A DNA stretch of 64,000 nt, taken from NCBI RefSeq assembly GCF_024464595.1, contig NZ_JANHAW010000001.1:947083-1011082 (forward strand), read 5' to 3'. Both the position numbers and the translations under genes were made by a program. Shown one piece after another: positions 347-64,000 of the stretch; within the stretch, counting starts at the first letter, position 1; each line of letters opens with the position of its first letter. The notes beneath the pieces were generated by a model. That model was given only the letters and a program-made list of their open reading frames with translations. It was not told where the DNA came from and made no database searches. Source of the DNA: Halobellus litoreus (GTDB lineage Archaea > Halobacteriota > Halobacteria > Halobacteriales > Haloferacaceae).

Positions 347-1587
347 CCGCGAACGCCAGAGCCTCGCCGGACGCGCGGGACGACACCGGCGTACTCGACG
401 ACGAGGCCGTGTTGCTGGTAGGCCACGGCTCCCGCCGCGAGAAGTCGAACGAACAGGTCCGGGCGCTCGCGGCCGATCTGGAGGATCGACTCGGCCTACC
501 GGTCGACGCCGGCTTTCTGGAACTCGCGACGCCCTCGATATCCGACGCGATCGCCGGGCTCGCGGCGACAGTCTCGCGAATCAGCGTCGTGCAACTGTCG
601 CTGTTCGCCGCGAGCCACGTGAAGAACGACGTCCCGCTGGCGGTCCAGCGAGCCAGGAACGAACACCCCGACGTCACCGTCCACAACGGCGCACACCTCG
701 GCGTCCACCCGGCGCTCGTCGACCTGCTCGACGACCGGGCGGCGGCCGTGGAGGCCGAGTTGGGCGTCGACCGCGAGACCGACGACGTCGCGGTGGTGCT
801 CTGCGCGCGCGGCTCCAGCGATCCGGACGCCAACAGCGACGCGCACAAACTCGCCCGGTTGCTGTACGAGGGCCGGGCCTTCGACCGCGTCGAGACGGCC
901 TTCATCGGCGTCACCGAGCCGCGGTTGGAGGAGGCGCTGCACGCCGCCGCCAAACACCGGCCCGACGCCGTCGTCGTGCTCCCGTACATGCTCGGCGACG
1001 GCGTCCTCACCGGGCGGATCCGCGAGGGGGCCGCCGAGTTCGACGACGAGTACCCCTACGTCGACGCGGCGGCCGGCGACCCGCTCGGAACGGACGGCCG
1101 GCTGCTGGACGTCCTCGGCGACCGCTGGCAGGAGGCCCGGACGGAAAGCGTCGATATGTCCTGTGACACCTGCAAGTACAAGGTCGAACTCGACGGCTAC
1201 GAGGCGGACGTCGGCGGCGCGAAAGCGACGTTGCGCGCGCTGACGCATCAGGAGTCGCACGCCGACCGCGACGACGTGGACGACGAGCCACACGCACACG
1301 ACGCGCCGGCGAAGCACGTCGCGGTGTGTACCAATCAGACGTGCGCCGCCGACGGCGCGCCGGCCGTCCTCGAAGGGTTGCGGCAGGCCGCACGCGATTC
1401 CGACGCCTGCGACGCCCGGATCACGCGTTCGTCGTGTCTCGGCCGCTGCGGCGACGGCCCGATGGTCGCCGTCTACCCCGACGGCGTCTGGTACGGCGGC
1501 GTCGACGGGAGCGACGCGGAGCGAATCGTCTCGTCCCACCTCGATCGGGACCGCATCGTCTCGGACCTCGTCGACCAAGTGTTATAA
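343..1587 (+). CDS. cbiX: Sirohydrochlorin cobaltochelatase CbiX with C-terminal 2Fe-2S ferredoxin domain
   Basis: Inserts Co2+ into sirohydrochlorin, the first committed step of cobalt-early B12 synthesis. The 414-residue protein has two CbiX half-domains: the first holds VGHGS (His28) and ASHVKND (His92), the likely metal-binding histidines; the second holds CARGSS. A His-rich stretch (about 300-325) follows. Residues about 325-405 form a thioredoxin-like ferredoxin with cysteines 329, 334, 365 and 369 (CTNQTC and CLGRC) and the family-typical ending MVAVYPDGVWYGGV. The ATG at 343 overlaps the upstream stop and places HGS at the expected distance; an earlier in-frame ATG at 232 would run deep into the upstream gene. 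DUF3209 follows directly. The fusion suggests redox control or electron supply; that part is inference. Confidence 0.93.
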   Translation: MTANARASPDARDDTGVLDDEAVLLVGHGSRREKSNEQVRALAADLEDRLGLPVDAGFLELATPSISDAIAGLAATVSRISVVQLSLFAASHVKNDVPLAVQRARNEHPDVTVHNGAHLGVHPALVDLLDDRAAAVEAELGVDRETDDVAVVLCARGSSDPDANSDAHKLARLLYEGRAFDRVETAFIGVTEPRLEEALHAAAKHRPDAVVVLPYMLGDGVLTGRIREGAAEFDDEYPYVDAAAGDPLGTDGRLLDVLGDRWQEARTESVDMSCDTCKYKVELDGYEADVGGAKATLRALTHQESHADRDDVDDEPHAHDAPAKHVAVCTNQTCAADGAPAVLEGLRQAARDSDACDARITRSSCLGRCGDGPMVAVYPDGVWYGGVDGSDAERIVSSHLDRDRIVSDLVDQVL

Positions 1588-3398: not shown

Positions 3399-5633
3399 TC
3401 AGCTTTCACGTGCGGCACCGACGACCGCGTCGATCCGCTCGGCGGAGAGCGCAGACAGCGGAACGCGCGTCCCGTCTGTTTCGTCGGCGACCAGTCCGGC
3501 CACTCCCGCTTCCCCGCCGTCTCCTGCGTCGACGACGACGACGTGCGCGCCGAGTTCGGCCAGTCGCCGGGCGGCCTCGCGGGTCTCGCCGACCGGGCTC
3601 CCCCCGGCGACGTTCGCGCGGCCGTCCGTGACCAACACGACGACGGCGGCGGCGGGGTCGGCCCGATCGAGGACGTCGGCCGCGGTTCGGAGCCCCGCGG
3701 GCAGCGGGGTCCGGTCGCCGGTCGGCAGGTCCTTGAGGTGGCGCGCTGCGAGCGTGACGCTGTTCGTCGGCGGGAGGAGGACGTCCGCCCCGTCGCCGGC
3801 GAACGAGACGAACCCGACCTCGTCGCGCTGGCGGTACGCGTCCTTCAGCAGTTCGAGTACCGTCCCCTTCGCCGCGCGCATCGCCGGACGCATCGACGCG
3901 CTGGCGTCGACGACGAAGAGCACCAGTGCGCCCGCGTCGCTCCGGCGGACCGACTGCCGGAGGTCCCGCGACTCGACGGACGACGCGCCGCGGGCGGCCG
4001 CCGCGCGGACCGAGGCGGCGGCGTCGACGTCGTCCGCCGGATTCGCGCGACGTGTGCGCACCCGGGCCCCCTCGCTGTCGACGGTCGGGTCGGTCCGCGT
4101 TCGGGTGCCGCTCCCCGCCTTCGCGTCCGTGACGGCCTCAGGCGCGGTCAATTCGGGGGCACGTCCCGCGCCGACTCCGGCGGGCGACTGCCCCGGGACG
4201 AGCGGACTGGCCTGTGTGGAGTCGTCGGAGTCGTCCACTGAATCTTCACCGTCGGCGTCCGTGTCGGCCCCCGTGTTCCGGTTCCCGTCCTCCGCGATCT
4301 TCCCGTTCCCCGCTGCCGATTCGGTGTGATTGGGGTCGCTGTCGCCGTTTCGGCCCGACGAGGACGGTCCCGCGTCCGTCCCGTCGGGGTCGTTCCCCTC
4401 CTCGGACGGTTCGGGCTCGGTCGATGGTCCCGATCCATCGCCGTCGCCCGGGTCACCGGGGTCGCCGGTCTCGCTCGTCGGGTCGCCGCACTCGTTCGCC
4501 GAGTCGCTGTTCTCGCCCCTGGCGTCGCCTTCTTCTTTCCCTTCGGGGTCTTCCCCGTCGGTTTCCCCATCGTCCTCGTTGCCTTCGTCGCCCGCTCCGT
4601 CGAAGTGGTCGTCGACGAGTTCCTCGGGATCGGGGGCGTCCTCGAACGGGCGCGCTCGAAGCCGGTGCGGGAGCGCGAGTTCCGCCGCGCGTCGGACGTC
4701 GGGTTCGACGACCTTCGAGCGTCCGTCGAGTGCGGCGAAGGTCATCGCGGCCCGCGCCGTGGCGATGTCGCCGCGGTGTCCCTCCGCGCCCGAGTCCCGG
4801 CACAGTTCCGCGATCTCCCGTTGGAATTCGGTCGGGAGGTCGACCTCCGGGAGGAGTTCGCGGGCCGTTCGGAGCTGGTCTCGGCGATCTGCTTCGCCGT
4901 CGGTTTCGGTGCTTGACGCCGTCCCCCCCGTATCGCGGCCGATCGCACGGTCGATGATGTCGACCCGTTGATCCAGGTCCTCGCAGGCCGTCACCGTCGC
5001 CTGAAGCGCGAAGCGGTCCCGCAGCTGGGGACGGAGGTCACCCTCCTCGGGGTTCATCGTGCCGACGAGCGTGAAGTCGGCCGGGTGGGTGACGCTGACG
5101 CCGTCGCGCTCGACGCGATTGACCCCGCTGGCCGCCGCGTCCAGCAGCACGTCGACGAGGTGGTCGTCGAGGAGATTCACCTCGTCGACGTAGAGGATGC
5201 CGCGGTTCGCGCGGGCGAGCAGGCCGGGATCGAACTCGTACTCGCCGGCCAGCGCGTCCGACACCGAGAGCGTCCCGACGACCCGCTCGCGGGTCGCACC
5301 CAGCGGGAGCGTCACGAGTGGGACCGGCCGCTCGGTCCGCGGCGGGTCCGTCCGCTGGCGACAGCGATCGCACTGGCGTTCGGGGTCCTCGGGCGGACAG
5401 CCGTAGGGACAGTCGGTGACGACGTCCTGTTTCGGTAGCAGGTCCGTCAGCGCCCGGACCGCCGTCGACTTCGCCGTTCCCTTCTCGCCTCGGATAAGGA
5501 GGCCGTCCAGGCTGTCGTTCGCCGCGACGGCGAGTAAAGCCCGCTTGAGTTCCTCCTGTCCGACGATCTGGGAGAACGAGAACCCTGACTCCCGATCGTG
5601 CGAAGCTTTTTTCACTTCACCGTAATCAATCAT
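3399..5633 (-). CDS. Chelatase subunit ChlID-type (AAA+ ChlI part fused to VWA ChlD part)
   Basis: ATPase partner of CobN for ATP-driven cobalt (or magnesium-type) chelation. The 744-residue protein starts with an AAA+ domain: FSQIVGQEELK, Walker A RGEKGTAKST (about 49-58), Walker B region ILYVDEVNLLDDHL, sensor region TMNPEEGDLRPQLRDRF. A long Asp/Glu/Ser/Gly-rich linker (about 340-500) follows, then a von Willebrand A domain with the MIDAS motif DASAS at about 576. The start at 5633 (MIDYGEVKK) is chosen because residues further upstream read into the divergent cobN gene and look non-coding. A Cys cluster CPYGCPPEDPERQCDRC early in the AAA+ domain may bind zinc. It is divergent from cobN, with a 34-base gap. 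Confidence 0.9.
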   Translation of the reverse strand: MIDYGEVKKASHDRESGFSFSQIVGQEELKRALLAVAANDSLDGLLIRGEKGTAKSTAVRALTDLLPKQDVVTDCPYGCPPEDPERQCDRCRQRTDPPRTERPVPLVTLPLGATRERVVGTLSVSDALAGEYEFDPGLLARANRGILYVDEVNLLDDHLVDVLLDAAASGVNRVERDGVSVTHPADFTLVGTMNPEEGDLRPQLRDRFALQATVTACEDLDQRVDIIDRAIGRDTGGTASSTETDGEADRRDQLRTARELLPEVDLPTEFQREIAELCRDSGAEGHRGDIATARAAMTFAALDGRSKVVEPDVRRAAELALPHRLRARPFEDAPDPEELVDDHFDGAGDEGNEDDGETDGEDPEGKEEGDARGENSDSANECGDPTSETGDPGDPGDGDGSGPSTEPEPSEEGNDPDGTDAGPSSSGRNGDSDPNHTESAAGNGKIAEDGNRNTGADTDADGEDSVDDSDDSTQASPLVPGQSPAGVGAGRAPELTAPEAVTDAKAGSGTRTRTDPTVDSEGARVRTRRANPADDVDAAASVRAAAARGASSVESRDLRQSVRRSDAGALVLFVVDASASMRPAMRAAKGTVLELLKDAYRQRDEVGFVSFAGDGADVLLPPTNSVTLAARHLKDLPTGDRTPLPAGLRTAADVLDRADPAAAVVVLVTDGRANVAGGSPVGETREAARRLAELGAHVVVVDAGDGGEAGVAGLVADETDGTRVPLSALSAERIDAVVGAARES

Positions 5634-5667
5634 ACTTGAATTAGCGCAATAGAGGTTTAACAACGTT
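5634..5667. promoter_or_regulatory. Short divergent promoter region between chlID and cobN
   Basis: Only 34 bases separate the start codons of the two divergent chelatase genes. The stretch is AT-rich relative to its surroundings (TTGAATTAG and GGTTTAAC) and must hold both core promoters, so expression of the two subunits is probably linked. No clear palindrome is visible. Confidence 0.5.
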
Positions 5668-8600
5668 ATGCCAACAATCGGCCTGTACACCGCGACCGAA
5701 AACGAGCTCGGGGCCGTCCAGCGCGCCGCGAAGCGGACGGACGTCGACCTGGTCGTCCGCTCGGAGAGCGACCTCGACGACGGGACCGACGTCGACGCGT
5801 TCCTCGACGAGATCGACGACGCGACGGCGGCGGTCTTCTGGCTCCACGGCGGCGAGGAGAGTATGCCCGGATACGACCGCGCCGTCGAGCGATTGCGCGA
5901 CGCCGGCGTGCCGCTCGTCGTCAAATCGACCGGAGACGCCTACGCGATCGAGGACACGTCCGTCGCCGCGACGGACCGCGACCGCATCTACGAGTACCTG
6001 GAACGGGGCGGGACCGCCAACGTCGCGAACTGTCTCCGCTTCCTCGCCGACGAGTATTCCCACATCGACCGCGAGTACGACGATCCCGTGACGCTCCCGA
6101 CGGAGGGCGTCTACCACCCCGATCACCCCGGGGCGTCCTACGAGGAGTTGGCGGCCGACCTCGACCCGTCGACGCCGACGGTCGCGGTCTGGTTCTACGA
6201 GTCCCACTGGACCCACGAGAACACGCGCTACGTCGACGCCCAGGTGCGGGCCGTGGAGGCCCAAGGCGCGGACGCCCTGCCGATCTTTTGCAATCCGGCG
6301 ACCGATACCGAGGGGCAGTGGGACGCCGAGCGGGTGACTCAGGAGTGGCTCCTCGACGACGGAGAACCCCTCGTCGACGCCGTCCTCTCTTCGTTTATGT
6401 TCTCGCTGTCGATGGACGAGCGGGGGCGCGCGGCCGACGACGAGGGCGATAGCGCCGAAGACGTCTTTGTAGAGCAACTGGGCGTCCCGGTGATCCAGAC
6501 CGTCACGACGATGCGCTCGCGGTCCCGGTACGCGTCGAGCAACACGGGCGTGATGGGCTTCGAACTCGCCCTCTCGGTCGCGCTCCCGGAGTTCGACGGC
6601 AACGTCGTCACCCACCCGATCAGCGGGAAGGAGCGCACCGACGACGAGGCCGGCATCGGGAGCGCGCCGAAGCAGCACTTCCCGATCGACGACCGGGTCG
6701 ACCACGCCGCGCGACTGGCGGTCAACTGGGCGCGGTTGCGGCACGTCCCGAACGAGGAGAAGGACGTCGCGGTCGTCCTGCACAACTACCCGCCGAGCGA
6801 CGACGGGATCGGGACCGCCTTCGGCCTCGACAGCCCCGAGAGCACGGTCAATCTCCTGGAAGAACTCGGTGCACGGGGGTACGACCTCGGCGGGGGCGAC
6901 GGCAGCGACGCGTCGCCGTCGCTCCCCGACAGCGGCCAAGCGCTCGTCGAGCGGCTCACCGACCAGCTCACCCTGGACAACCGCTGGGTCGCCCCCGAGG
7001 ACGTCCGCGACCTGAGCGTCGACGTCGTCGCGCCAGGTCGCTACCGCGAGTGGTTCGGTGAACTGGACGAGCGCTTCCGAGAGAACGTCCGCGACGAGTG
7101 GGGCGAGGCCCCCGACCGACCCGTCGCGATCCCGGGCGTCGAGTTCGGGAACGTCCTCGTCACCGTCCAGCCGCCGCGCGGCTTCGGGATGGACCCCTCG
7201 AAAGTGTACCACGATTCGGACCTCCAGCCGCCGCGCGGCTTCGGGATGGACCCCTCGAAAGTGTACCACGATTCGGACCTCCAGCCGCCCCACGACTACG
7301 TGGCATTCTACGGCTGGCTCCGGAACGCGTTCGAGGCCGACGCCGTCGTCCACCTCGGGACCCACGGCAGCCTGGAGTGGCTCCCGGGCAAGACGGTCGG
7401 GTTGGACGGCGAGAGCGCCCCCGACCAACTGATCGACGACGTCCCGAACGTCTACCCCTACATCGTCAACAACCCCGGCGAGGGGACGCAGGCGAAGCGG
7501 CGCTCCTACGCGGCGATCGTCGACTACCTCACGCCGGTGATGCGCAACGCCGGAACGTACGACGAACTGTCCGAGTTGGAGGAACTCGCCGACCAGTATC
7601 GTGAGGCCGGGATGGAGGACGCCCGCACCGACGACGGCGAGGGCCTCGAACGGCAGCTCAGAGAGAAGGTCGACGAACTCGACCTCGCGGTGGAATTGGG
7701 AATCGCGGGCGACATCGACGAAAAAGCAGACGTTCGCGGTCCCGACGAAGCCGGCTCCACGCTCGCCGAGGGCGCGGTCGGCGGCGACGACGTCGCCGTC
7801 GACGAACTCGTCGAGCGCGTCCACGCGTACCTCACGGACGTGAAGACGACCCAGATCCGGATGGGGCTCCACACGATGGGCGAACCGCCCGAGGGCGAAC
7901 GGCTGACCGAGTATCTGGTCGCGCTCACCAGACTGGAGAACCCCGGCGGCCCGAGCCTCAGGGAGAGCGTCGCGGGCGTGCTCGGCGTCGACTACGAGCG
8001 GATGCTCGACGAGCCGGGCCACTACGACGAGGAGCTCGGGATGACGCTCTCGGAGGCGGCCGACGAGGTGTACGAGACGAGCCTCGACCTCGTCGAAACA
8101 CTCGCCGAGCACGACTTCGACCCGCCGGCCTCGGAGGTCGACGCTGGGCCAGACGATGAGGTAAATATGAACCTGCTCGTCGTCGATATCGACCCGCTCG
8201 GGGACGCGCGGGTGCAGTCCGGTGCGCACGAGGACCTCCGCGCGGCCCTGAACTTCGTCTGCGAGGAGGTGGCCCCGCGCGTCCGCGGCGCGTCCGAGGA
8301 GATTCCGCGAACGGCCGAGGCGCTGGCCGGCGAGTACGTGCCGCCCGGTGGCAGCGGCGCGCCGACCCGCGGCGGCGTCGACCTGCTGCCGACGGCGCGG
8401 AACTTCTACACGCTGGATCCCCGAAAGATCCCGGCGAAGAGCGCCTGGCGCGTCGGGCGCGAGGTCGCGGAGGGTACCGCCGAACGCCACGCCGACGAGC
8501 ACGGCGCGTACCCCGAGGAAGTCGGCGTCGTCGCCTGGGGGACGCCCACCGTGCGGACCCGCGGCGAGACGGTCGCGCAGGTGCTCGCGCTGATGGGCGT

Positions 8601-9630
8601 CGAACCAGAGTGGACCGACGCGGGACGCGTCGACGGCGTCTCTCCAATTCCACTCGACGAACTCGAACGCCCCCGAATCGACGTCACGACCCGCGTCTCG
8701 GGGCTGTTCCGCGACGCCTTCCCGCAGGCCGCGAGCGTCGTCCGCGACGCCGTCGACGCGGTCGTCGATCTGGACGAACCACACGAGATGAACTACGTGA
8801 AGAAGCACGTCGAGGAGGAGACCGAACGGCTCGAGGAGGCGGGCGTCGACGATCCGGAGACGGCCGCAAAGCACCGCGTGTTCACGACCCGTCCCGGCGG
8901 GTACGGCGCGGGCACGAACAAGGCCGTCGACGAGGGGAACTGGGAGGACCGATCCGATCTGGCCGACGTGTACGTCCAGTGGGGCGGGTACGCCCTGGGG
9001 AGTCGCGGCCGCGTCTCGGAGGCGCACGACGCCTTCGAACGTCGGCTGGGCAGCGTCGAGGCCACAGTCAAGATCGAAGACACCGCCGAGCAGGACGAGT
9101 TCGACAGCTCCGACTGGTACGCGTTCCACGGCGGCTTCATCACCGCCGTCTCGGAGATATCGGGCGAAGAGCCGGCCTCCTACGTCGGCGACTCCAGCGA
9201 CCCCGACAACGTCTCCGTCTACACGAACGAGGAGAAGGTCCGGAAGGCGATGCGCGCCCGCGTGCTCAACCCCGACTGGCTCGACAGTATGGAAGAGCAC
9301 GACTACAAGGGGGCCGGCGACCTGTCCACGACGGTCGACGTCGTCCTCGGCTGGGACGCGACCACCGGCGTCGTCAGCGACGCACTCTGGAGCGACGTCG
9401 CCGAGAAGTACGCCTTCGACGCGGACAGGCAAGAGTGGATGCGAGACGTGAACCCGTGGGCCATAGAGAGCATCACCGACACCTTGCTCGAAGCCATCAG
9501 CCGCGGGCTGTGGGACGCGGACGAGGCGACGGCCGATCGGCTGCGAGACGTCAACCTCCGCGTCGACGGTGACCTCGAAGCGCGCGCCGGGGGAGTAGCC
9601 GTTCCGGAGGCGTCGAGCGATGACGACTGA
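5668..9630 (+). CDS. cobN: Cobaltochelatase subunit CobN
   Basis: Large chelatase subunit of 1320 residues, within the usual CobN/ChlH size range. Visible landmarks: an N-terminal Rossmann-like segment MPTIGLYTATENELG, the motif HLGTHGSLEWLPGK at about 562-575, and the C-terminal GRGYGAG-type region seen here as RPGGYGAGTNKAVD. It works with the ChlID-type subunit encoded divergently. Residues 501-519 (QPPRGFGMDPSKVYHDSDL) are repeated exactly at 520-538, so the conserved CobN segment QPPRGFG...YHDPDL...PPHHY occurs twice in tandem just before the catalytic-region motif. The frame stays intact, but activity could be affected. cbiC overlaps the 3' end by 11 bases. Confidence 0.93.
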   Translation: MPTIGLYTATENELGAVQRAAKRTDVDLVVRSESDLDDGTDVDAFLDEIDDATAAVFWLHGGEESMPGYDRAVERLRDAGVPLVVKSTGDAYAIEDTSVAATDRDRIYEYLERGGTANVANCLRFLADEYSHIDREYDDPVTLPTEGVYHPDHPGASYEELAADLDPSTPTVAVWFYESHWTHENTRYVDAQVRAVEAQGADALPIFCNPATDTEGQWDAERVTQEWLLDDGEPLVDAVLSSFMFSLSMDERGRAADDEGDSAEDVFVEQLGVPVIQTVTTMRSRSRYASSNTGVMGFELALSVALPEFDGNVVTHPISGKERTDDEAGIGSAPKQHFPIDDRVDHAARLAVNWARLRHVPNEEKDVAVVLHNYPPSDDGIGTAFGLDSPESTVNLLEELGARGYDLGGGDGSDASPSLPDSGQALVERLTDQLTLDNRWVAPEDVRDLSVDVVAPGRYREWFGELDERFRENVRDEWGEAPDRPVAIPGVEFGNVLVTVQPPRGFGMDPSKVYHDSDLQPPRGFGMDPSKVYHDSDLQPPHDYVAFYGWLRNAFEADAVVHLGTHGSLEWLPGKTVGLDGESAPDQLIDDVPNVYPYIVNNPGEGTQAKRRSYAAIVDYLTPVMRNAGTYDELSELEELADQYREAGMEDARTDDGEGLERQLREKVDELDLAVELGIAGDIDEKADVRGPDEAGSTLAEGAVGGDDVAVDELVERVHAYLTDVKTTQIRMGLHTMGEPPEGERLTEYLVALTRLENPGGPSLRESVAGVLGVDYERMLDEPGHYDEELGMTLSEAADEVYETSLDLVETLAEHDFDPPASEVDAGPDDEVNMNLLVVDIDPLGDARVQSGAHEDLRAALNFVCEEVAPRVRGASEEIPRTAEALAGEYVPPGGSGAPTRGGVDLLPTARNFYTLDPRKIPAKSAWRVGREVAEGTAERHADEHGAYPEEVGVVAWGTPTVRTRGETVAQVLALMGVEPEWTDAGRVDGVSPIPLDELERPRIDVTTRVSGLFRDAFPQAASVVRDAVDAVVDLDEPHEMNYVKKHVEEETERLEEAGVDDPETAAKHRVFTTRPGGYGAGTNKAVDEGNWEDRSDLADVYVQWGGYALGSRGRVSEAHDAFERRLGSVEATVKIEDTAEQDEFDSSDWYAFHGGFITAVSEISGEEPASYVGDSSDPDNVSVYTNEEKVRKAMRARVLNPDWLDSMEEHDYKGAGDLSTTVDVVLGWDATTGVVSDALWSDVAEKYAFDADRQEWMRDVNPWAIESITDTLLEAISRGLWDADEATADRLRDVNLRVDGDLEARAGGVAVPEASSDDD
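7168..7281 (+). repeat. Perfect 57-bp in-frame tandem duplication inside cobN
   Basis: Bases 7168-7224 and 7225-7281 are identical over 57 bases (19 codons). A third start of the unit (CAGCCGCC) follows at 7282, where the normal family sequence resumes. Perfect identity implies a very recent event or an assembly artefact. Confidence 0.95.
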
Positions 9631-10333
9631 GCGAGTCGAAACTGCGTCCGAGAGCGACGTCGACGAGTACGCCGACCTCGGCGCGACCACGGAGAACGCG
9701 ATGGACATCGCGGAGACGAGTATGGACCGCGTGCGCGAACTCGTTCCCGACGAGACGCTCGCGGACCGGGTTCGACAGAAGAGCGTCCACGCGACCGGCG
9801 ATCCCGAGTTCCAGCACCTCGTGCGGTTCACCGGCGAGACCGACGACGAACCGGTCGTCGCCGGCGCGCGGGCGGTCCTCGAGGAGCGCCCCATCGTCAC
9901 CGATATCACGATGGTGAAAGCGGGGGTCACGGGGCGCGGTCACGGCTGCCCCGTGCGGAAGGCCATCGGAAACGGGGCCGATCTCGCGAAGCGAACCGGG
10001 ATGACGCGGACGGCCGCGTCCGTCCTGGAACTCGATCGCGAGGGCGTCTACGACGGCGCCGTCGCCGTCGTGGGCAACGCGCCGACGGCGGCGCTCGCGC
10101 TCGCCGACTGCATCGAAGACGGGACCCGACCCGCCGTCGCGGTGGCCACGCCGGTCGGGTTCGTCAAGGCCGTCGAGAGCCGCGAGCGCCTCCGCGAAGT
10201 GGCAGCGGCCCGTGGGGTCCCGGCGATCACGAACGTCGGCCGCCGCGGCGGGAGCGGGCTGGCGGCCGGGCTGACGAACGAGCTCGTCCACGTCGCGAGC
10301 GACGTCCGGAACGGCGAGGTCGACCTCCCGTGA
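9620..10333 (+). CDS. cbiC: Cobalt-precorrin-8 methylmutase CbiC
   Basis: Moves the C-11 methyl group to C-12, converting (cobalt-)precorrin-8 to (cobyr)inate. The 237-residue product contains IVTDITMVKAGVTGRGHGCPV, with the methylmutase-typical histidine in GHG, and VGNAPTAALALAD, VATPVGFVKAVESRE and ITNVGRRGGSGLAAG, all characteristic of CobH/CbiC. A 40-residue acidic N-terminal extension precedes the core. The ATG lies 11 bases inside the cobN end, and the stop overlaps the GTG of the next gene, so cobN-cbiC-cbiE are coupled. Confidence 0.93.
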   Translation: MTTERVETASESDVDEYADLGATTENAMDIAETSMDRVRELVPDETLADRVRQKSVHATGDPEFQHLVRFTGETDDEPVVAGARAVLEERPIVTDITMVKAGVTGRGHGCPVRKAIGNGADLAKRTGMTRTAASVLELDREGVYDGAVAVVGNAPTAALALADCIEDGTRPAVAVATPVGFVKAVESRERLREVAAARGVPAITNVGRRGGSGLAAGLTNELVHVASDVRNGEVDLP

Positions 10334-11094
10334 GCGACGAGTACGACCTGGATACGGGGCCCGATCCGGCCGCCGTCGCGGCCTCGGAACCGGAGCCCGA
10401 CGCTGACGGGAGGAGAAGTGCGGTCGACGCCGTCGGAATCGGGCCGGGAAACCCGGAGTACCTGACTCCGAGAGCCGAGCGTTCGATCCGCGAGGCCGAC
10501 GTCGTCGTCGGCTTCGAGACGGTCGTCGAGTTCGTCGCTGGGCAGACCGACGCCGACCTGCTCACCTGCGGATACCGCGACGAGGCCGAGACGCTCGCGA
10601 CGTTCGCCGACCGCGTCGCCGACGGGGAACGCGGGACGGCCGTGCTGATGGGCGATCCGAACCACTCGGGGTACCAGTTCGTCGGGAAGGTCGAGGCCGC
10701 CGTCGGAGCCCCGGTTCGGGTGATTCCGGGAATTTCCTCGCTGCAAGTGGCCGCGAGCAGGGCGCGGACGCCGATGGAGGACGCGTGCTTCGTGACGCTG
10801 CACAAGAGCGGAGACGTCACGGCGGGTCTGCAGCGACTCCGCCGCAACGTCGGTCAGCGGCACCTCCTCGTGCTCCCGCGCCCCTACGACTGGATGCCGG
10901 AGGACGTCGCGGCCGACTTGCTCGAAACGGGCGCCTCGGCGTCGCTGGACGCCCTCGTTCTGGAACGGCTCACGCATATCGACGAGGTGGTGACCCGAAC
11001 CACGCTGGGTGCCCTCGGAGCGCGGGCCACCGACTCCGCCTCCGAGGAATCGCCGTTCTCCGACCTCTCGGTGCTCGCCGTACGGTCCGACTGA
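10330..11094 (+). CDS. cbiE: Cobalt-precorrin-7 C5-methyltransferase CbiE-like
   Basis: SAM-dependent tetrapyrrole methylase of 254 residues. After a 35-residue acidic leader it shows AVGIGPGNPEYLTPRA, the CbiE/CobL N-terminal nucleotide-binding loop, then MGDPNHSGYQFVGKV (GDP motif) and IPGISSLQVAASR, the second SAM-binding motif. It acts near the end of corrin-ring methylation, next to CbiC. The GTG start at 10330 overlaps the cbiC stop (GTGA). A decarboxylating CbiT part is absent here and probably encoded elsewhere. Another precorrin methylase (for example CbiH-like) cannot be fully excluded, but the GPGNPEYLTP loop favours CbiE. Confidence 0.8.
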   Translation: MSDEYDLDTGPDPAAVAASEPEPDADGRRSAVDAVGIGPGNPEYLTPRAERSIREADVVVGFETVVEFVAGQTDADLLTCGYRDEAETLATFADRVADGERGTAVLMGDPNHSGYQFVGKVEAAVGAPVRVIPGISSLQVAASRARTPMEDACFVTLHKSGDVTAGLQRLRRNVGQRHLLVLPRPYDWMPEDVAADLLETGASASLDALVLERLTHIDEVVTRTTLGALGARATDSASEESPFSDLSVLAVRSD

Positions 11095-11298: not shown

Positions 11299-12084
11299 AT
11301 GACATCCGAATCAATCCTGCTCGTCGCCCGCGACACGAGAAACGCCCGCGAAGTGCTCGGAGAACACGCTGACCGACTCCGTCGCCGCGGTGTCGTCGAC
11401 GACGTCGAGGTGGCGACCTACGAGAGCGAACCGGTCCGAGAGCTCCGCGAACAGTTCGAGCGCGTCGCCGCCGACACGGTGTACGCGGTCCCGATGTGTG
11501 CCGCGCACACCCACGAAACGACCGACGACGTTCCCGCCGCGCTCTCGTACGTCCCGGGAAACGTCCGCTACTGCGAACCGCTGGGTGGGAGCCCCGCCGT
11601 CACCGAGGTGATCGAAGCGCGGGGCGAAGAGCTGCTCCCGGCGTCCGAAGACGTCTCGCTCATCCTTGTCGGCTTTGGAAGCAGTGCTAAGCCGTATCAC
11701 CGGCAGACGGTCGATTACCACGCGGCTCGACTTCGCGAACAGTCGGCGTATCGCGAGGTTCTGCCGTGTTATCTCCTCCAGAATCCTGCCGTCGAGTGCG
11801 TCCGATACAACGCGACCGGGAGCCGCTCGGTCGCCGTCCCGCTCTTTCTGTCGCGGACCGAGGCGACCGAGCGCCGGATCCCCGCGGAACTGGAACTGGA
11901 CCGCGGCGGCATCGAATACGCCGACCCGCTCGGGGAACACCCGCGGATAACCGACGCCGTTCACGCGGAAGTAGCGAAGCAGCGCGCGCTGGCACCCGTC
12001 GACGCGGCGACCGACGCCTCGTTCGAGACCCGACTGACTCGGTCGCGGCGTCCGGTCGCGACGGACGGAGAGGGCCGACGGTGA
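11299..12084 (+). CDS. CbiX-like protein, divergent paralogue
   Basis: A 261-residue protein with two CbiX-type half-domains: ILLVARDTRNAREVLGEHADRL and LILVGFGSSAKPYHRQTVDYHAARL, plus AVPMCAAHTHETTDDVP and AVPLFLSRTEATERRIP, which match the chelatase core around the second metal-binding histidine. The first histidine of the usual GHGS motif is replaced (VARDT), whereas the AAHTH site is kept. It may therefore be a chelatase with an altered metal site, or a metal chaperone. It lies upstream of cbiA, with a 21-codon frame linking them. Classified by pattern only; no close functional assignment. Confidence 0.7.
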   Translation: MTSESILLVARDTRNAREVLGEHADRLRRRGVVDDVEVATYESEPVRELREQFERVAADTVYAVPMCAAHTHETTDDVPAALSYVPGNVRYCEPLGGSPAVTEVIEARGEELLPASEDVSLILVGFGSSAKPYHRQTVDYHAARLREQSAYREVLPCYLLQNPAVECVRYNATGSRSVAVPLFLSRTEATERRIPAELELDRGGIEYADPLGEHPRITDAVHAEVAKQRALAPVDAATDASFETRLTRSRRPVATDGEGRR

Positions 12085-12146
12085 TTGTCCCGGTCGGTCC
12101 CGATACGACGGCAGTGGCTGCCCGCGGCGGCGGCTTGAGGCGATGA
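12081..12146 (+). CDS. Possible 21-codon linker ORF between the cbiX-like gene and cbiA
   Basis: A GTG at 12081 overlaps the preceding stop (GTGA), and the TGA at 12144 overlaps the ATG of cbiA (ATGA). The 21-residue product ends in ARGGGLRR and has no recognisable domain. The double overlap would let ribosomes run from one gene to the next without a gap. It may be a coupling leader, the remnant of a lost gene, or chance in GC-rich DNA. Confidence 0.25.
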   Translation: MIVPVGPDTTAVAARGGGLRR

Positions 12147-13447
12147 AGGGCATCGTAATCGGCGGAACCCGCTCCGGTGTCGGGAAAACCGTCGCCACGC
12201 TGGCCGTCGTTCGGGCGCTGGATGCGGCCGGGCAGTCGGTCCAACCCGCCAAGGCCGGTCCCGACTTCATCGATCCGAGTCACCACGAGCGCGTCGCGGG
12301 TCGCCCGTCGCGGACACTCGACCGCTGGCTCCAGGGCGAGGCGGGCCTCCGACGGAACTACCACCGCGGCGAGGGCGACGTCTGCGTCGTCGAGGGCGTG
12401 ATGGGTCTGTACGACGGCGACGGCTCCAGCACCGCGATGGTCGCCGAGGCGCTGGACCTCCCGGTCGTCCTCGTCGTCGACGCGAAGGCCGGGATGGAGA
12501 GCGTCGCCGCGACCGCGGTCGGGTTTCGGCGATACGCGGCACACGTCGACCGCGACGTCGACGTCGTCGGCGTCATCGCACAGCGCGCTCACGGCGGCCG
12601 CCACGAGCGCGGCATCCGCGACGCCTTGCCCGACGGGCTGGCGTATCTGGGACGGATCCCGCCGCGCGGCGATCTCGAGATTCCCGACAGACACCTCGGG
12701 TTGCGGATGGGCGACGAAGCGCCGCTCGAACCGGAGGTACTCGACGAGATCGCCGAGCGTATTCGCACCGACCGACTCCTCGACCTCGCGCGAACGTCGC
12801 CGCGACCCGATCCGGAAGCGGAGCGACCCCCGTCGGGGACCGGCAAGCGCGTCGCAGTCGCCCGGGACGACGCCTTCCGGTTCTGTTACCCGGCGACCGC
12901 CGAGCGCCTCCGCGAGCGCGCCGAAGTGGTGACCTTCGCGCCGACGGCCGGGGACGACCTCCCGGACTGCGACGGGGTCTATCTCCCGGGCGGGTATCCG
13001 GAACTGCACGGCGAGGCGCTGGCCGAGAGCCCGGCGCTCGATCAACTCGAAACCGCGGCGGCCGACGGCCGCCCCGTCTTCGGCGAGTGCGGCGGGCTGA
13101 TGGCACTCGCGGAGTCGCTGACGACCGCCGACGGCGACACTCACCGGATGGCCGGCGTCCTCCCGGCGGACGTGCGGATGCACGACCGGTATCAGGCGCT
13201 CGACCACGTCGAACTCCGCGCCCGTCGCGGGACGCTCACCGCCGATGCGGGGAGTCGGCTCCGGGGTCACGAGTTCCACTACTCCAGCGCCCAGGCGGCC
13301 ACGGACGCCCGATTCGCGTTCGACGTCGAGCGCGGCGAGGGCATCGACGACGGGCGAGGCGGGCTCACCGAGTACCGGACCCTCGGGACGTACTGTCACG
13401 TCCACCCCGCGAGCGGGGCCTTCGACGCGTTCGTCGAGTCGCTGTGA
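12143..13447 (+). CDS. cbiA: Cobyrinate a,c-diamide synthase CbiA
   Basis: Amidates the a and c side chains of cobyrinate using glutamine and ATP. The 434-residue protein has the CbiA N-terminal dethiobiotin-synthase-like domain with P-loop GGTRSGVGKT (7-16), PAKAGPDFIDPSHH and VEGVMGLYDG. It also has the C-terminal class I glutaminase domain with YLPGGYPELHGEAL and the nucleophile Cys316 in FGECGGLMAL, plus later histidines in HEFHYSS and YCHVHP. All key motifs are present. The ATG overlaps the stop of the short frame upstream. It is the last cobalamin gene of the window; the C-terminal end is followed by tRNA debris. Confidence 0.95.
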   Translation: MKGIVIGGTRSGVGKTVATLAVVRALDAAGQSVQPAKAGPDFIDPSHHERVAGRPSRTLDRWLQGEAGLRRNYHRGEGDVCVVEGVMGLYDGDGSSTAMVAEALDLPVVLVVDAKAGMESVAATAVGFRRYAAHVDRDVDVVGVIAQRAHGGRHERGIRDALPDGLAYLGRIPPRGDLEIPDRHLGLRMGDEAPLEPEVLDEIAERIRTDRLLDLARTSPRPDPEAERPPSGTGKRVAVARDDAFRFCYPATAERLRERAEVVTFAPTAGDDLPDCDGVYLPGGYPELHGEALAESPALDQLETAAADGRPVFGECGGLMALAESLTTADGDTHRMAGVLPADVRMHDRYQALDHVELRARRGTLTADAGSRLRGHEFHYSSAQAATDARFAFDVERGEGIDDGRGGLTEYRTLGTYCHVHPASGAFDAFVESL

Positions 13448-20232: not shown

Positions 20233-20504
20233 CTACGCCAGCGGCGTCCGCTCGACTACGGTCCCAGTCCCACCTTTTGCGCTGCGCTCGCTCCGCTCGC
20301 TCGGCAAAAGCTGGACCAAAAGCCTCGCCTTCGGCTCGGCCGCTCGCACGCGCTGCGTCCTCGCGACGCTACGCCAGCGGCGTCCGCTCGACTACGGTCC
20401 CAGTCCCACCTTTTGCGCTGCGCTCGCTCCGCTCGCTCGGCAAAAGCTGGACCAAAAGCCTCGCCTTCGGCTCGGCCGCTCGCACGCGCTGCGTCCTCGC
20501 GACG
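20233..20504. repeat. 136-bp tandem repeat containing the 3' end of the radical SAM gene
   Basis: Two consecutive, essentially identical 136-bp units (20233-20368 and 20369-20504). The start of a third unit (20505-20537) is the genuine 3' end of the radical SAM gene. Each unit therefore carries a copy of the last codons and stop of that gene plus low-complexity haloarchaeal spacer (GCTCGCTCCGCTCGCTCGGC). The 301-base gap after the membrane-protein gene holds nothing else. Confidence 0.95.
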
Positions 20505-21500
20505 CTACGCCAGCGGCGTCCGCTCGACTACGGTCCCGTCGGCCGTCGGGTACTGCTCGACGATTTCGCCCTCGGGGACGTCGCCCTCCTCGATCATCTC
20601 CTCTAAGAGCCACCACGCGACCTCGACGTGCTCGGACTTGACGGTGTAGAACTCCTCGGGCACGCCGAGGGCGTCGAGTTCCTCGGACCCGATCCACGTC
20701 TTGCCGTAGACGAGGGTACCGTCGTCGGTCACCTCGTCGAACGGTCGCCGGATCGTCCGCGCCATCCGCTTCAGGCGGTTGCGGTGCTGGGCGGCGTCCT
20801 TGAACACGGAGGTGCAGAAGTACACGCGCTCGTGGTCGCCCATCGCCTCGAGGATCTCCGCTTTCGATCCGTCGACGGCGGACATGTGGCCCTCCTGGAG
20901 TTCGTAGCCCTGCTCCTGCATCCGCCGGTAGTTGCCGTCGCTCATCTCGAACTCGTTTACATTACAGAACTCGGCCGCGCCTTCGTCGAGGAACTCCAGG
21001 AACTCCTCCTCGGCGCGGATGCCGGGGATCTCGAAGGCGGGCGTCAGCCCCTCCTCGCGCGCGACGTGAAGTATCTCCTCCCACTCGGTGCCGTGGAGGT
21101 CGCCCCACAGTTCGTAGGGCGGGTGGAAGCGGATCTCGTCGAGGCCGGCCTCGGAGAGTCGGCGCATGTTCTCTCGACCGCCGGTGATGCCGGTGTAGAG
21201 GTGCGTGTGGTGGTCCTCGCCGAACTCGTCTTTCAGCAGCGAGAGGTAGTGGCAGGTCCGGTCGAGGGCCTCCTGGGGTTCGCCGCCGGTGATCGAGGTG
21301 CCGAGGGCGTCCATCCGGTGGGCCTCTTCGAGGACGTCGTCGTCGGACTCGACGAGGCGCTCGTTGGCGTAGACGTCGGTGACGTTCTTGCGGTTCTCGC
21401 CGAGCGGGCAGTAAAAGCAGTCGCGCTGGTCGCAGTAGCCGTAGACGAAGAGGACCATCTTCCCACCTTTCGCGCACTGCTCACAGCCCTTCGAGATCAT
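20505..21500 (-). CDS. Radical SAM protein (COG2108-like)
   Basis: A 331-residue radical SAM enzyme. The Fe-S motif is GYCDQRDCFYC (residues about 22-32), that is C-x4-C-x2-C rather than the standard C-x3-C-x2-C. GTSITGGEPQEALDR is the SAM-binding GGE motif, and HTHLYTGI and EIRFHPPYELW continue the barrel. The family is described as related to pyruvate formate-lyase activating enzymes, with unknown substrate. The start at 21500 follows from the N-terminal MISKGCEQCAKGGKMVLF. A TATA-like CTTTTGAG lies about 26-34 bases before it. The C-terminal codons are duplicated downstream in the 136-bp repeat, with no effect on the protein. Confidence 0.85.
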   Translation of the reverse strand: MISKGCEQCAKGGKMVLFVYGYCDQRDCFYCPLGENRKNVTDVYANERLVESDDDVLEEAHRMDALGTSITGGEPQEALDRTCHYLSLLKDEFGEDHHTHLYTGITGGRENMRRLSEAGLDEIRFHPPYELWGDLHGTEWEEILHVAREEGLTPAFEIPGIRAEEEFLEFLDEGAAEFCNVNEFEMSDGNYRRMQEQGYELQEGHMSAVDGSKAEILEAMGDHERVYFCTSVFKDAAQHRNRLKRMARTIRRPFDEVTDDGTLVYGKTWIGSEELDALGVPEEFYTVKSEHVEVAWWLLEEMIEEGDVPEGEIVEQYPTADGTVVERTPLA

Positions 21501-21525
21501 TTCGTTGTGTTCGATACCGTCCGGA

Positions 21526-21665
21526 GACTCAAAAGTCGTGCTACTTGGTCCGACCCGGTCGGACCGGCCGAGGTCGGTCCCCGGCTGCGACGCTTCCGGA
21601 AGCGGACACCCGCTTCCGACGCTCTCGAAAACGGACCCGCCTCCGGCGCTCCCGAAAACAGATAT
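21526..21665. promoter_or_regulatory. Divergent promoters for the radical SAM and DUF373 genes
   Basis: The 190-base gap has a minus-strand TATA-like CTTTTGAG near 21526-21535 and a plus-strand TATA-like AGATATAC at 21658-21665, 26-33 bases before the DUF373 ATG. Between them lie short GC-rich repeats of the type CGCTTCCG, CGCCTCCGGCGCTC and GAAAACGGAC / GAAAACAGAT. Confidence 0.5.
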
Positions 21666-21690
21666 ACTCCGACGGCGTAGGTCCCCGCAG

Positions 21691-22821
21691 ATGCTTTTGG
21701 TCCTCTGCGTCGACCTCGACGACGACCTCGGCCGCAAGACGGGGATGGAGACGCCCGTCGTCGGCCGCGACGCCGTCGAGTCGGCCGCGGTGTCGCTCGC
21801 GACCGCGGACCCGGAGGACTCCGACGTCAACGTGCTGTTCCAGGGGATCCACGAGTACGACGAACTCGACGCCGACCCCGACGTCGAAGAGGAAGTGACC
21901 GTCGCGGCCGTCACGGGTACCCAGGGCGGCGACGTGAAGGCCAACCGCGCGATCGGCGAGGAGATCGATCGGGTGCTCGCGGGTCTGTCGACCGGGGAGA
22001 ACGTCAGCGCCATCGTCATCACCGACGGCGCACAGGACGAGTCGGTCCTCCCGATCGTCCGCTCGCGCGTCCCCATCGACAGCGTCCGCCGGGTGGTCGT
22101 CCGGCAGGCGCAGGACCTCGAATCGATCTACTACACGATGAAGCAGGTCCTCGCGGATCCAGAGACCCGCGGGACGATCCTGGTGCCGCTCGGCATCCTG
22201 CTGCTCATCTACCCCTTCGTCACCATCGCGAGCTTCTTCGACGTGCCCGGGGCGGTGGTGCTGGGCGTCATCTCTGCGCTTCTTGGGCTCTATACGCTCT
22301 TCCGCGGGCTCGGCCTCGAAGACGCCGTCGACGACACCGCGAGTCGGATCCGCGACGTCCTCTACGAGGGCCGCGTCACGCTCATCACCTACGTCGCCGC
22401 CGCCGCCCTCATCGTCGTCGGCGGCTTCCGCGGGTACGCGCTCTTCGAGACGGCGCGGATGAGCGTGAGCGACCCGACGCCGCCGCTGATCGCGCTCGCG
22501 GCGCTCGTCCACGGCGCGGTCCAGTGGTTCGCGGCCGCCGGAGTCACCTCCAGTCTCGGGCAGGTGACAGACGAGTACCTCGCGGATCGGTTCAAGTGGC
22601 GGTACCTCAACGCGCCCTTCTACGTCGTCGCCATCGCCGTCGTCCTCTACGTCGTCTCGGGCTTCTTCCTCCCGGCGAGCATCGACGGCGTCCGGTCGTT
22701 CTCGCTGACGCAACTGGCGATCGGGCTCACGGGCGGGACGCTGCTGGGCGTGTTCAGCACGCTCGCGTTCGCGATCGCGGAGTCGCGGTTCCCGACGGCC
22801 GCGGAGGCGACGCAGGGGTGA
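21691..22821 (+). CDS. DUF373 family membrane protein
   Basis: A 376-residue protein with a soluble Rossmann-like N-terminal half (MLLVLCVDLDDDLGRKTG, then VTGTQGGDVKANRAIGEEID and VITDGAQDESVLPIV). Conserved acidic and TDGAQDE motifs mark the DUF373 family. A C-terminal half of about five or six transmembrane helices follows (residues about 165-370). The DDD and TDGAQDE motifs look like a nucleotide- or metal-binding site, but the function is unknown. The ATG at 21691 lies at leaderless distance from a TATA box; the open frame upstream is spacer. Confidence 0.9.
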   Translation: MLLVLCVDLDDDLGRKTGMETPVVGRDAVESAAVSLATADPEDSDVNVLFQGIHEYDELDADPDVEEEVTVAAVTGTQGGDVKANRAIGEEIDRVLAGLSTGENVSAIVITDGAQDESVLPIVRSRVPIDSVRRVVVRQAQDLESIYYTMKQVLADPETRGTILVPLGILLLIYPFVTIASFFDVPGAVVLGVISALLGLYTLFRGLGLEDAVDDTASRIRDVLYEGRVTLITYVAAAALIVVGGFRGYALFETARMSVSDPTPPLIALAALVHGAVQWFAAAGVTSSLGQVTDEYLADRFKWRYLNAPFYVVAIAVVLYVVSGFFLPASIDGVRSFSLTQLAIGLTGGTLLGVFSTLAFAIAESRFPTAAEATQG

Positions 22822-62819: not shown

Positions 62820-64000
62820 TCAGCCGAAGAACCGGCCGAAGAGCCCCTTCTTGCCGTCGCCGTCGTCGTCGGACTCACCCGGATCCTCCTCTGCCGAGTC
62901 GCCGTCGCCGCCCGACTCGTCCGGATTCTCCTCGGCCGAGGTGTCAACACCGTCGTCGTCCGCTGTGTCCCCGCCGCTGTCGGCGTCAGTCGGATCGACG
63001 ACCGTCGCTGCGGCGTCGGCCTCCGAATCCTCCGGAGCCGACTCGGCGGGGTCGTCTGCGTCGGCCGACGACCCGTCGTCGTCGATCTCCGCCTCGAGTG
63101 ACGTCGTGTAGACTCCGCCCTCGGGATCGGTCTCGGCCTGCGGTTCGGCGGCGTCGATCTCGTCGGGGGTGGCCGGTTCGACGAGCGGCTCAGACTGCCC
63201 CGGGTCCGAGTCGCCCTCGGCGTCGGGAGCGACTCTTTCGACCGCTGTTCCGGCCTCGTCGTCGGTCTCGACCGGCTGGACCCCGGCGTCGTCGGAGTCG
63301 AGTTCGCCGTCGGAGGCGGATCCGTCCGCGTCCGCCTCGGATAGCTCGACGCGCTCCGGCGGGCGATCGCCCTCGTGAGACCCGGCGACGACGATGTCTT
63401 CGTCCGAGTAGTCGGAACCCGAAGGCGACTCCGCCGACGACGACGGGTTGGACGCTCGGTCGGCAGTTTCCCCGGCCGATGGTCCGTCGGTGCCGTCGCT
63501 TTCGGCGGTCCCCTCGGGGACGGGTTCTTCGCCGTCTGATTCGGCCTCGGAGGCCTCGGAAGTCGTCTCGTCTCCCGGTTCGGTTGCGTCGGCCGTGTCC
63601 TCGGAGTCGGTTTCGTCGACCGTGTCTTCCGAGTCGGAGTCTCCGGCCGCATCCCCGGCTTCGGCGTCACCGCTCACGTCCCCCGCTTCGGCGTCGCCGA
63701 CGGCGGTAGCCGCGTCGTCGACGAGCTCCAGTCCGGTCAGACTCCCCGCGAGCGCGCGGTACGCCGTTGCGGCGTCGCTTCCGGGCGCGAACGTCGTCAC
63801 CGGCTCGCCCGCGTCGGCGGCGTCCGCGAGCACGGCGGCGTCGGGGATCACGTCGAGAATCTCCGCGTCGAGCAGGTCGCCGACCCGGTCGCGGTCCAGC
63901 GACTCCGGGTCGGCGCGCGTGATCACGGCCCCGGCGACGGGCACGTCGAGGCGGTCGGCCACCTGTCGAGTCTTGTCGGTGTCGCCGAGCGCGTCCCGCG
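62820..64000 (-). CDS. MinD/ParA-family protein with long acidic tail, MinD4-like (5' end outside window)
   Basis: The frame is open through the window end, so only the last 393 residues are seen. The first part (DALGDTDKTRQVADRLDVPV, then AGAVITRADPESLDRDRVGD and LLDAEILDVIPDAAVLADAA) is the C-terminal half of a MinD fold; the P-loop lies outside. About 280 residues of Asp/Glu/Ser/Thr-rich disordered sequence follow, ending KKGLFGRFFG, an amphipathic segment like a MinD membrane anchor. The long tail and the argS neighbour recall Haloferax MinD4, which positions the archaellum and chemosensory arrays at the poles. That identity is inferred. Confidence 0.75.
   Translation of the reverse strand, partial: RDALGDTDKTRQVADRLDVPVAGAVITRADPESLDRDRVGDLLDAEILDVIPDAAVLADAADAGEPVTTFAPGSDAATAYRALAGSLTGLELVDDAATAVGDAEAGDVSGDAEAGDAAGDSDSEDTVDETDSEDTADATEPGDETTSEASEAESDGEEPVPEGTAESDGTDGPSAGETADRASNPSSSAESPSGSDYSDEDIVVAGSHEGDRPPERVELSEADADGSASDGELDSDDAGVQPVETDDEAGTAVERVAPDAEGDSDPGQSEPLVEPATPDEIDAAEPQAETDPEGGVYTTSLEAEIDDDGSSADADDPAESAPEDSEADAAATVVDPTDADSGGDTADDDGVDTSAEENPDESGGDGDSAEEDPGESDDDGDGKKGLFGRFFG

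Follow-up and report, generated by a model that had tools for sequence, protein, structure and literature searches.

The late cobaltochelatase gene cobN in the window (the whole 64-kb stretch of DNA that was analysed) carries a species-private, in-frame tandem duplication of Loop I. An ordinary microhomology-mediated mutation is its most likely source, with the resulting CobN either tolerated or impaired, and we give this reading as a whole a probability of about three in four. The duplication is a genuine observation, the mutation behind it is of an ordinary kind, and the site at which it fell is informative.

A perfect tandem array in cobN

The gene is identified by the curated CobN model TIGR02257, which its open reading frame matches at 902 bits, above the cut-off of 822. 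This bears out the name given to it in an earlier, sequence-only reading; matches to other CobN models fall short of the respective cut-offs. Relatives in the PDB are 7c6o, 9uk9 and ChlH 4zhj, and the HxG(T/K)HGxLEW active-site motif is present as HLGTHGSLEWLPGK. The features of the gene are as follows.

5668-9630, plus strand: cobN, late cobaltochelatase large subunit; 1,320 codons plus stop, intact; TIGR02257
7166-7289, plus strand: complete tandem array, two 57-bp copies and 10 bp of a third
7166-7175, plus strand: left microhomology, the first occurrence of the 10-bp direct repeat TCCAGCCGCC
7168-7224, plus strand: copy 1, codons Q501-L519, QPPRGFGMDPSKVYHDSDL
7225-7281, plus strand: copy 2, codons Q520-L538, nucleotide-identical to copy 1
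7280-7289, plus strand: right microhomology, the last occurrence of the 10-bp direct repeat TCCAGCCGCC, which opens QPPHDY
7351-7380, plus strand: HLGTHGSLEW motif, whose second His is the equivalent of HmuS His-538, a cleft metal ligand

Tandem Repeats Finder and an exact scan agree that 7166-7289 is one perfect array of period 57 with a 100% match. Both confirm the perfect 57-bp in-frame duplication that had been described at 7168-7281, which is the same array put in codon register. Since 57 bp is 19 codons, the cobN frame is kept. This adds 19 residues to domain III of the protein, where they lie between a beta-strand and an alpha-helix; 23 residues separate the end of copy 2 from HLGTHGSLEW. 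The array is far beyond chance: only two perfect tandem duplications with a period of at least 12 bp occur in the 64 kb. A genome-wide burst of such duplications was considered and rejected, as none with a period of at least 30 bp was seen in 200 kb sampled elsewhere on the same contig; the census outside the window rests on this sample and not on the whole genome.

The second perfect tandem duplication of the window lies at 20233-20537 (period 136, 2.2 copies, 33 bp of extra homology). The duplicated stretch takes in the 3' end of a minus-strand gene (20505-22076) and sequence downstream of it, including a TTTTGC...GCAAAAG inverted element; sister genomes match the neighbourhood only in part. 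An imperfect tandem repeat of period 42 with an 83% match is found at 62856-62940.

Loop I and its length among relatives

The duplicated block aligns without gaps to 7c6o, 9uk9, 4zhj and the HmuS structure 9d26. Two HmuS residues that belong to Loop I, Phe-502 and His-506 (PMC12583661), fall inside the aligned block, and His-506 corresponds to the His of YHD. Loop I is the beta5/alpha7 loop of domain III and gates the active-site cleft; ChlH has it closed, whereas in M. tuberculosis CobN it stands open and is partly disordered (PMC12583661). Going by this alignment, the duplicated block is Loop I, the gating loop of CobN/ChlH/HmuS chelatases. The absence of gaps also means that the length of Loop I is constant from haloarchaeal CobN to 7c6o, 9uk9, ChlH and HmuS, so that its doubling is unusual. 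AlphaFold models of the two-copy protein and of a one-copy relative are poor overall (pLDDT 51 and 53) and were used only for the local order of strand, loop and helix. That order appears in both, with a loop of 20 residues in the one-copy relative and 38 here.

With the class I large subunits 7c6o, 9uk9, 4zhj and 9d26 the protein shares homology over most of its length, the strand-Loop I-helix arrangement, the HxG(T/K)HG motif and an adjacent gene for a ChlI/ChlD-type partner. It differs from them in Loop I, which has 38 residues here versus 19, all compared relatives having the single length. The departure from the 19-residue spacing is the variation itself and not a family-defining catalytic feature.

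The single length also holds within the haloarchaea. The QPP...PPH spacing across the gating loop is 38 residues here and 19 in 103 other haloarchaeal CobN, and the 19 inserted columns are unique to this protein among 104 distinct sequences. Within the genus, cobN occurs in seven further genomes, each single-copy for the block. The 392 genomes of the order were searched with the 75-residue two-copy block as query, and 200 had a match. Among the matches listed, only the window's genome aligns over residues 1-75; all others cover the query only from residue 22 or 23 to 75, and the next-best E-value is about 17 orders weaker. In PLSDB, eight haloarchaeal plasmid-borne cobN genes match over 393-394 bp of the 450-451-bp query, which implies one copy in each. 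From these comparisons the duplication is private to one species. Two copies common to relatives, which the sequence-only reading had named as the outcome that would speak against it, were found in none of the 103 proteins, the eight plasmid records or the order-genome matches listed. Its suggestion of a private, slip-like insertion is supported.

Origin and age of the duplication

The ends of the array point to a short-homology slip. Single-copy sister species already carry TCCAGCCGCC twice, 57 bp apart (L003, L004, L009 and others), because the QPP motif that it encodes occurs at both ends of the loop. In L012 the matching 10-bp pair is kept, with one base changed in both sites. A short direct repeat thus pre-existed at both breakpoints of the unit, as microhomology-mediated tandem duplication calls for. 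Of random breakpoints in cobN, 0.02% have microhomology of at least 10 bp when the duplication spans 20-200 bp, and 0.29% when it spans 57 bp. In the proposed mechanism, a strand would mispair between the two TCCAGCCGCC sites and the interval would be copied once more, duplicating exactly 19 codons with the frame kept. The structure of the array, including its 10 extra matching bases, is as expected from that mispairing. A comparable pattern is known from Salmonella, where confirmed spontaneous duplications had direct repeats at their endpoints (PMC3411829). There too, short direct repeats of roughly 10 bp and upwards lay at the junctions, although those were rare junctions in chemostat cultures and this one belongs to an archaeon's assembled genome. 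Hairpin-promoted pausing was rejected as a cause, as folding of the single strand was no better than that of shuffled sequences (z -1.1 and 0.1).

The identity of the two copies places a limit on their age. The dS to the sister species is 0.241; copies as old as the sister split should then show about 3.3 synonymous differences, and 0 are seen. With no difference in 57 bp, the duplication can be at most about 90% as old as the split (95% level). Both copies use AAA for a Lys that is encoded by AAG in the five nearest relatives compared, which would place the duplication after that change, unless the copies were homogenised. Judged by these substitutions, the duplication is young on the species scale and arose somewhat later than the divergence from the nearest relative. 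The description "very recent" is overstated given a bound at only about 90% of the sister split; exact identity over 57 bp is not in itself proof of it.

By the substitution counts, cobN is under ordinary purifying selection. Its pairwise dN/dS with the nearest relatives comes to about 0.12-0.13, and its branch carries 21 nonsynonymous and 80 synonymous changes versus 24 and 64 in the sister. Decay of the gene after the duplication was rejected: no sign of it was seen in the reading frame, in dN/dS or in the branch counts, which match those of the sister lineage. Two changes, L273V and F491V (L002 numbering, about 5 residues above P0001 numbering), fall at otherwise invariant columns. They are not exceptional, as other sequences among the 104 CobN proteins have up to seven.

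Consequences for CobN and competing explanations

The neighbours of cobN match ChlI/D-type, CbiC, CbiE and CobB families and mark a cobalamin gene neighbourhood.

403-1128, plus strand: two CbiX-like domains in one frame, candidate early cobalt chelatase (genome C1:947485-948210)
3399-5633, minus strand: ChlI/ChlD-type chelatase subunit, divergent to cobN; start inferred at an internal ATG
9620-10333, plus strand: cbiC-like precorrin-8X methylmutase, overlapping the end of cobN
10330-11094, plus strand: cobalt-precorrin-7 C5-methyltransferase (CbiE type)
11299-12084, plus strand: CbiX-related chelatase-like protein
12143-13447, plus strand: cobyrinic acid a,c-diamide synthase (CobB/CbiA)

An extra loop could bulge outward or disturb closure of the lid, leaving CobN tolerated or impaired. 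The effect, as far as sequence can tell, is perhaps neutral or impairing. A faulty CobN may be survivable, because on the current view CbiX inserts cobalt early in haloarchaea, and CobN would serve, if at all, for salvage. In the haloarchaeal cobalt-early pathway CobN is described as "not required", and the role of the single-copy haloarchaeal protein is unproven (PMC8305020). This genome has CbiX-like genes, including the one at 403-1128, so an impaired CobN could persist. Against impairment stand the intact reading frame, the purifying selection and the fact that cobN is never separated from cbiC in the genus. The two genes occur in the same 8 of 17 genomes, which indicates that cobN is not lost on its own. 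This co-occurrence and the lack of decay fit a function that is still needed and argue against impairment, unless the duplication is young.

A different outcome would be a gain or shift of function, in which the doubled lid loosens the cleft of a CobN that still works, and altered lid dynamics change its choice of substrate or metal. The duplicated unit is exactly the gating loop, and the continuing purifying selection on cobN would suit such a change. The idea draws on the beta-lactamase PenL, where extra copies of omega-loop residues protrude outward, make the cavity wider and broaden the substrate range (PMC5101513), which suggests that a loop duplication can be accommodated. Both cases are in-frame intragenic duplications of an active-site loop; PenL, however, is an unrelated enzyme, and its functional effect was measured. 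No relative among the matches listed has the duplication, so there is no sign of recurrent selection, and the constant length of Loop I from haloarchaeal CobN to ChlH and HmuS suggests constraint. We therefore regard altered selectivity as unlikely. If it were true, it would be a natural case in which a single step duplicated an entire active-site loop of a class I chelatase.

That the array is an artefact of assembly, library or culture, and the living strain one-copy, strikes us as similarly improbable. The species, a haloarchaeon, is represented by one genome, a draft of 10 contigs, and the duplication is in only that one assembly. The locus nevertheless lies within a 1.5-Mb contig, in a window without N. 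The junction coincides exactly with a 10-bp repeat pair that sister species have too, as a mutational slip predicts, and a random contig-overlap error would land on such a repeat by chance in 0.02-0.3% of cases. The array, at 124 bp, is about as long as one short read, and for arrays of that length collapse in assembly is a commoner error than false duplication. The assembly error raised in the sequence-only reading is thus doubtful.

The same reading had raised a reversible slippage switch, with one copy active and two inactive and no frameshift between them. The array is physically able to act in this way: a perfect tandem repeat can drop one copy by mispairing, and this one offers a perfect 57-bp unit within 67 bp of aligned identity. 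We find nothing to recommend the switch beyond that generic instability, and consider it very improbable. Copy number does not vary in about 200 relatives (among the matches listed), all relatives examined having one copy, in contrast to what a phase-variable locus would show. The unit is a conserved protein block and not a low-complexity tract, and a one-off duplication gives the same picture. Under the preferred reading of a single microhomology-mediated event, one copy could likewise drop out again through renewed mispairing of this kind, which holds for any perfect tandem repeat.

If real, the duplication is a natural test of how much Loop I length class I chelatases tolerate. It would also offer a direct way into the question, left undecided in PMC8305020, of whether haloarchaea have any need of their late cobaltochelatase.

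The arrangement around cobN has some further features. The gene and that for the ChlI/ChlD-type subunit are apparently divergently transcribed, with about 34 bp between their likely starts (5633-5668), and cobN directly adjoins the cbiC-, cbiE- and cobB-type genes. Of the eight genomes of the genus that carry cobN, only five show strong conservation of the CbiX-related gene at 11299-12084; in the remaining three, the matches are weak and lie elsewhere.
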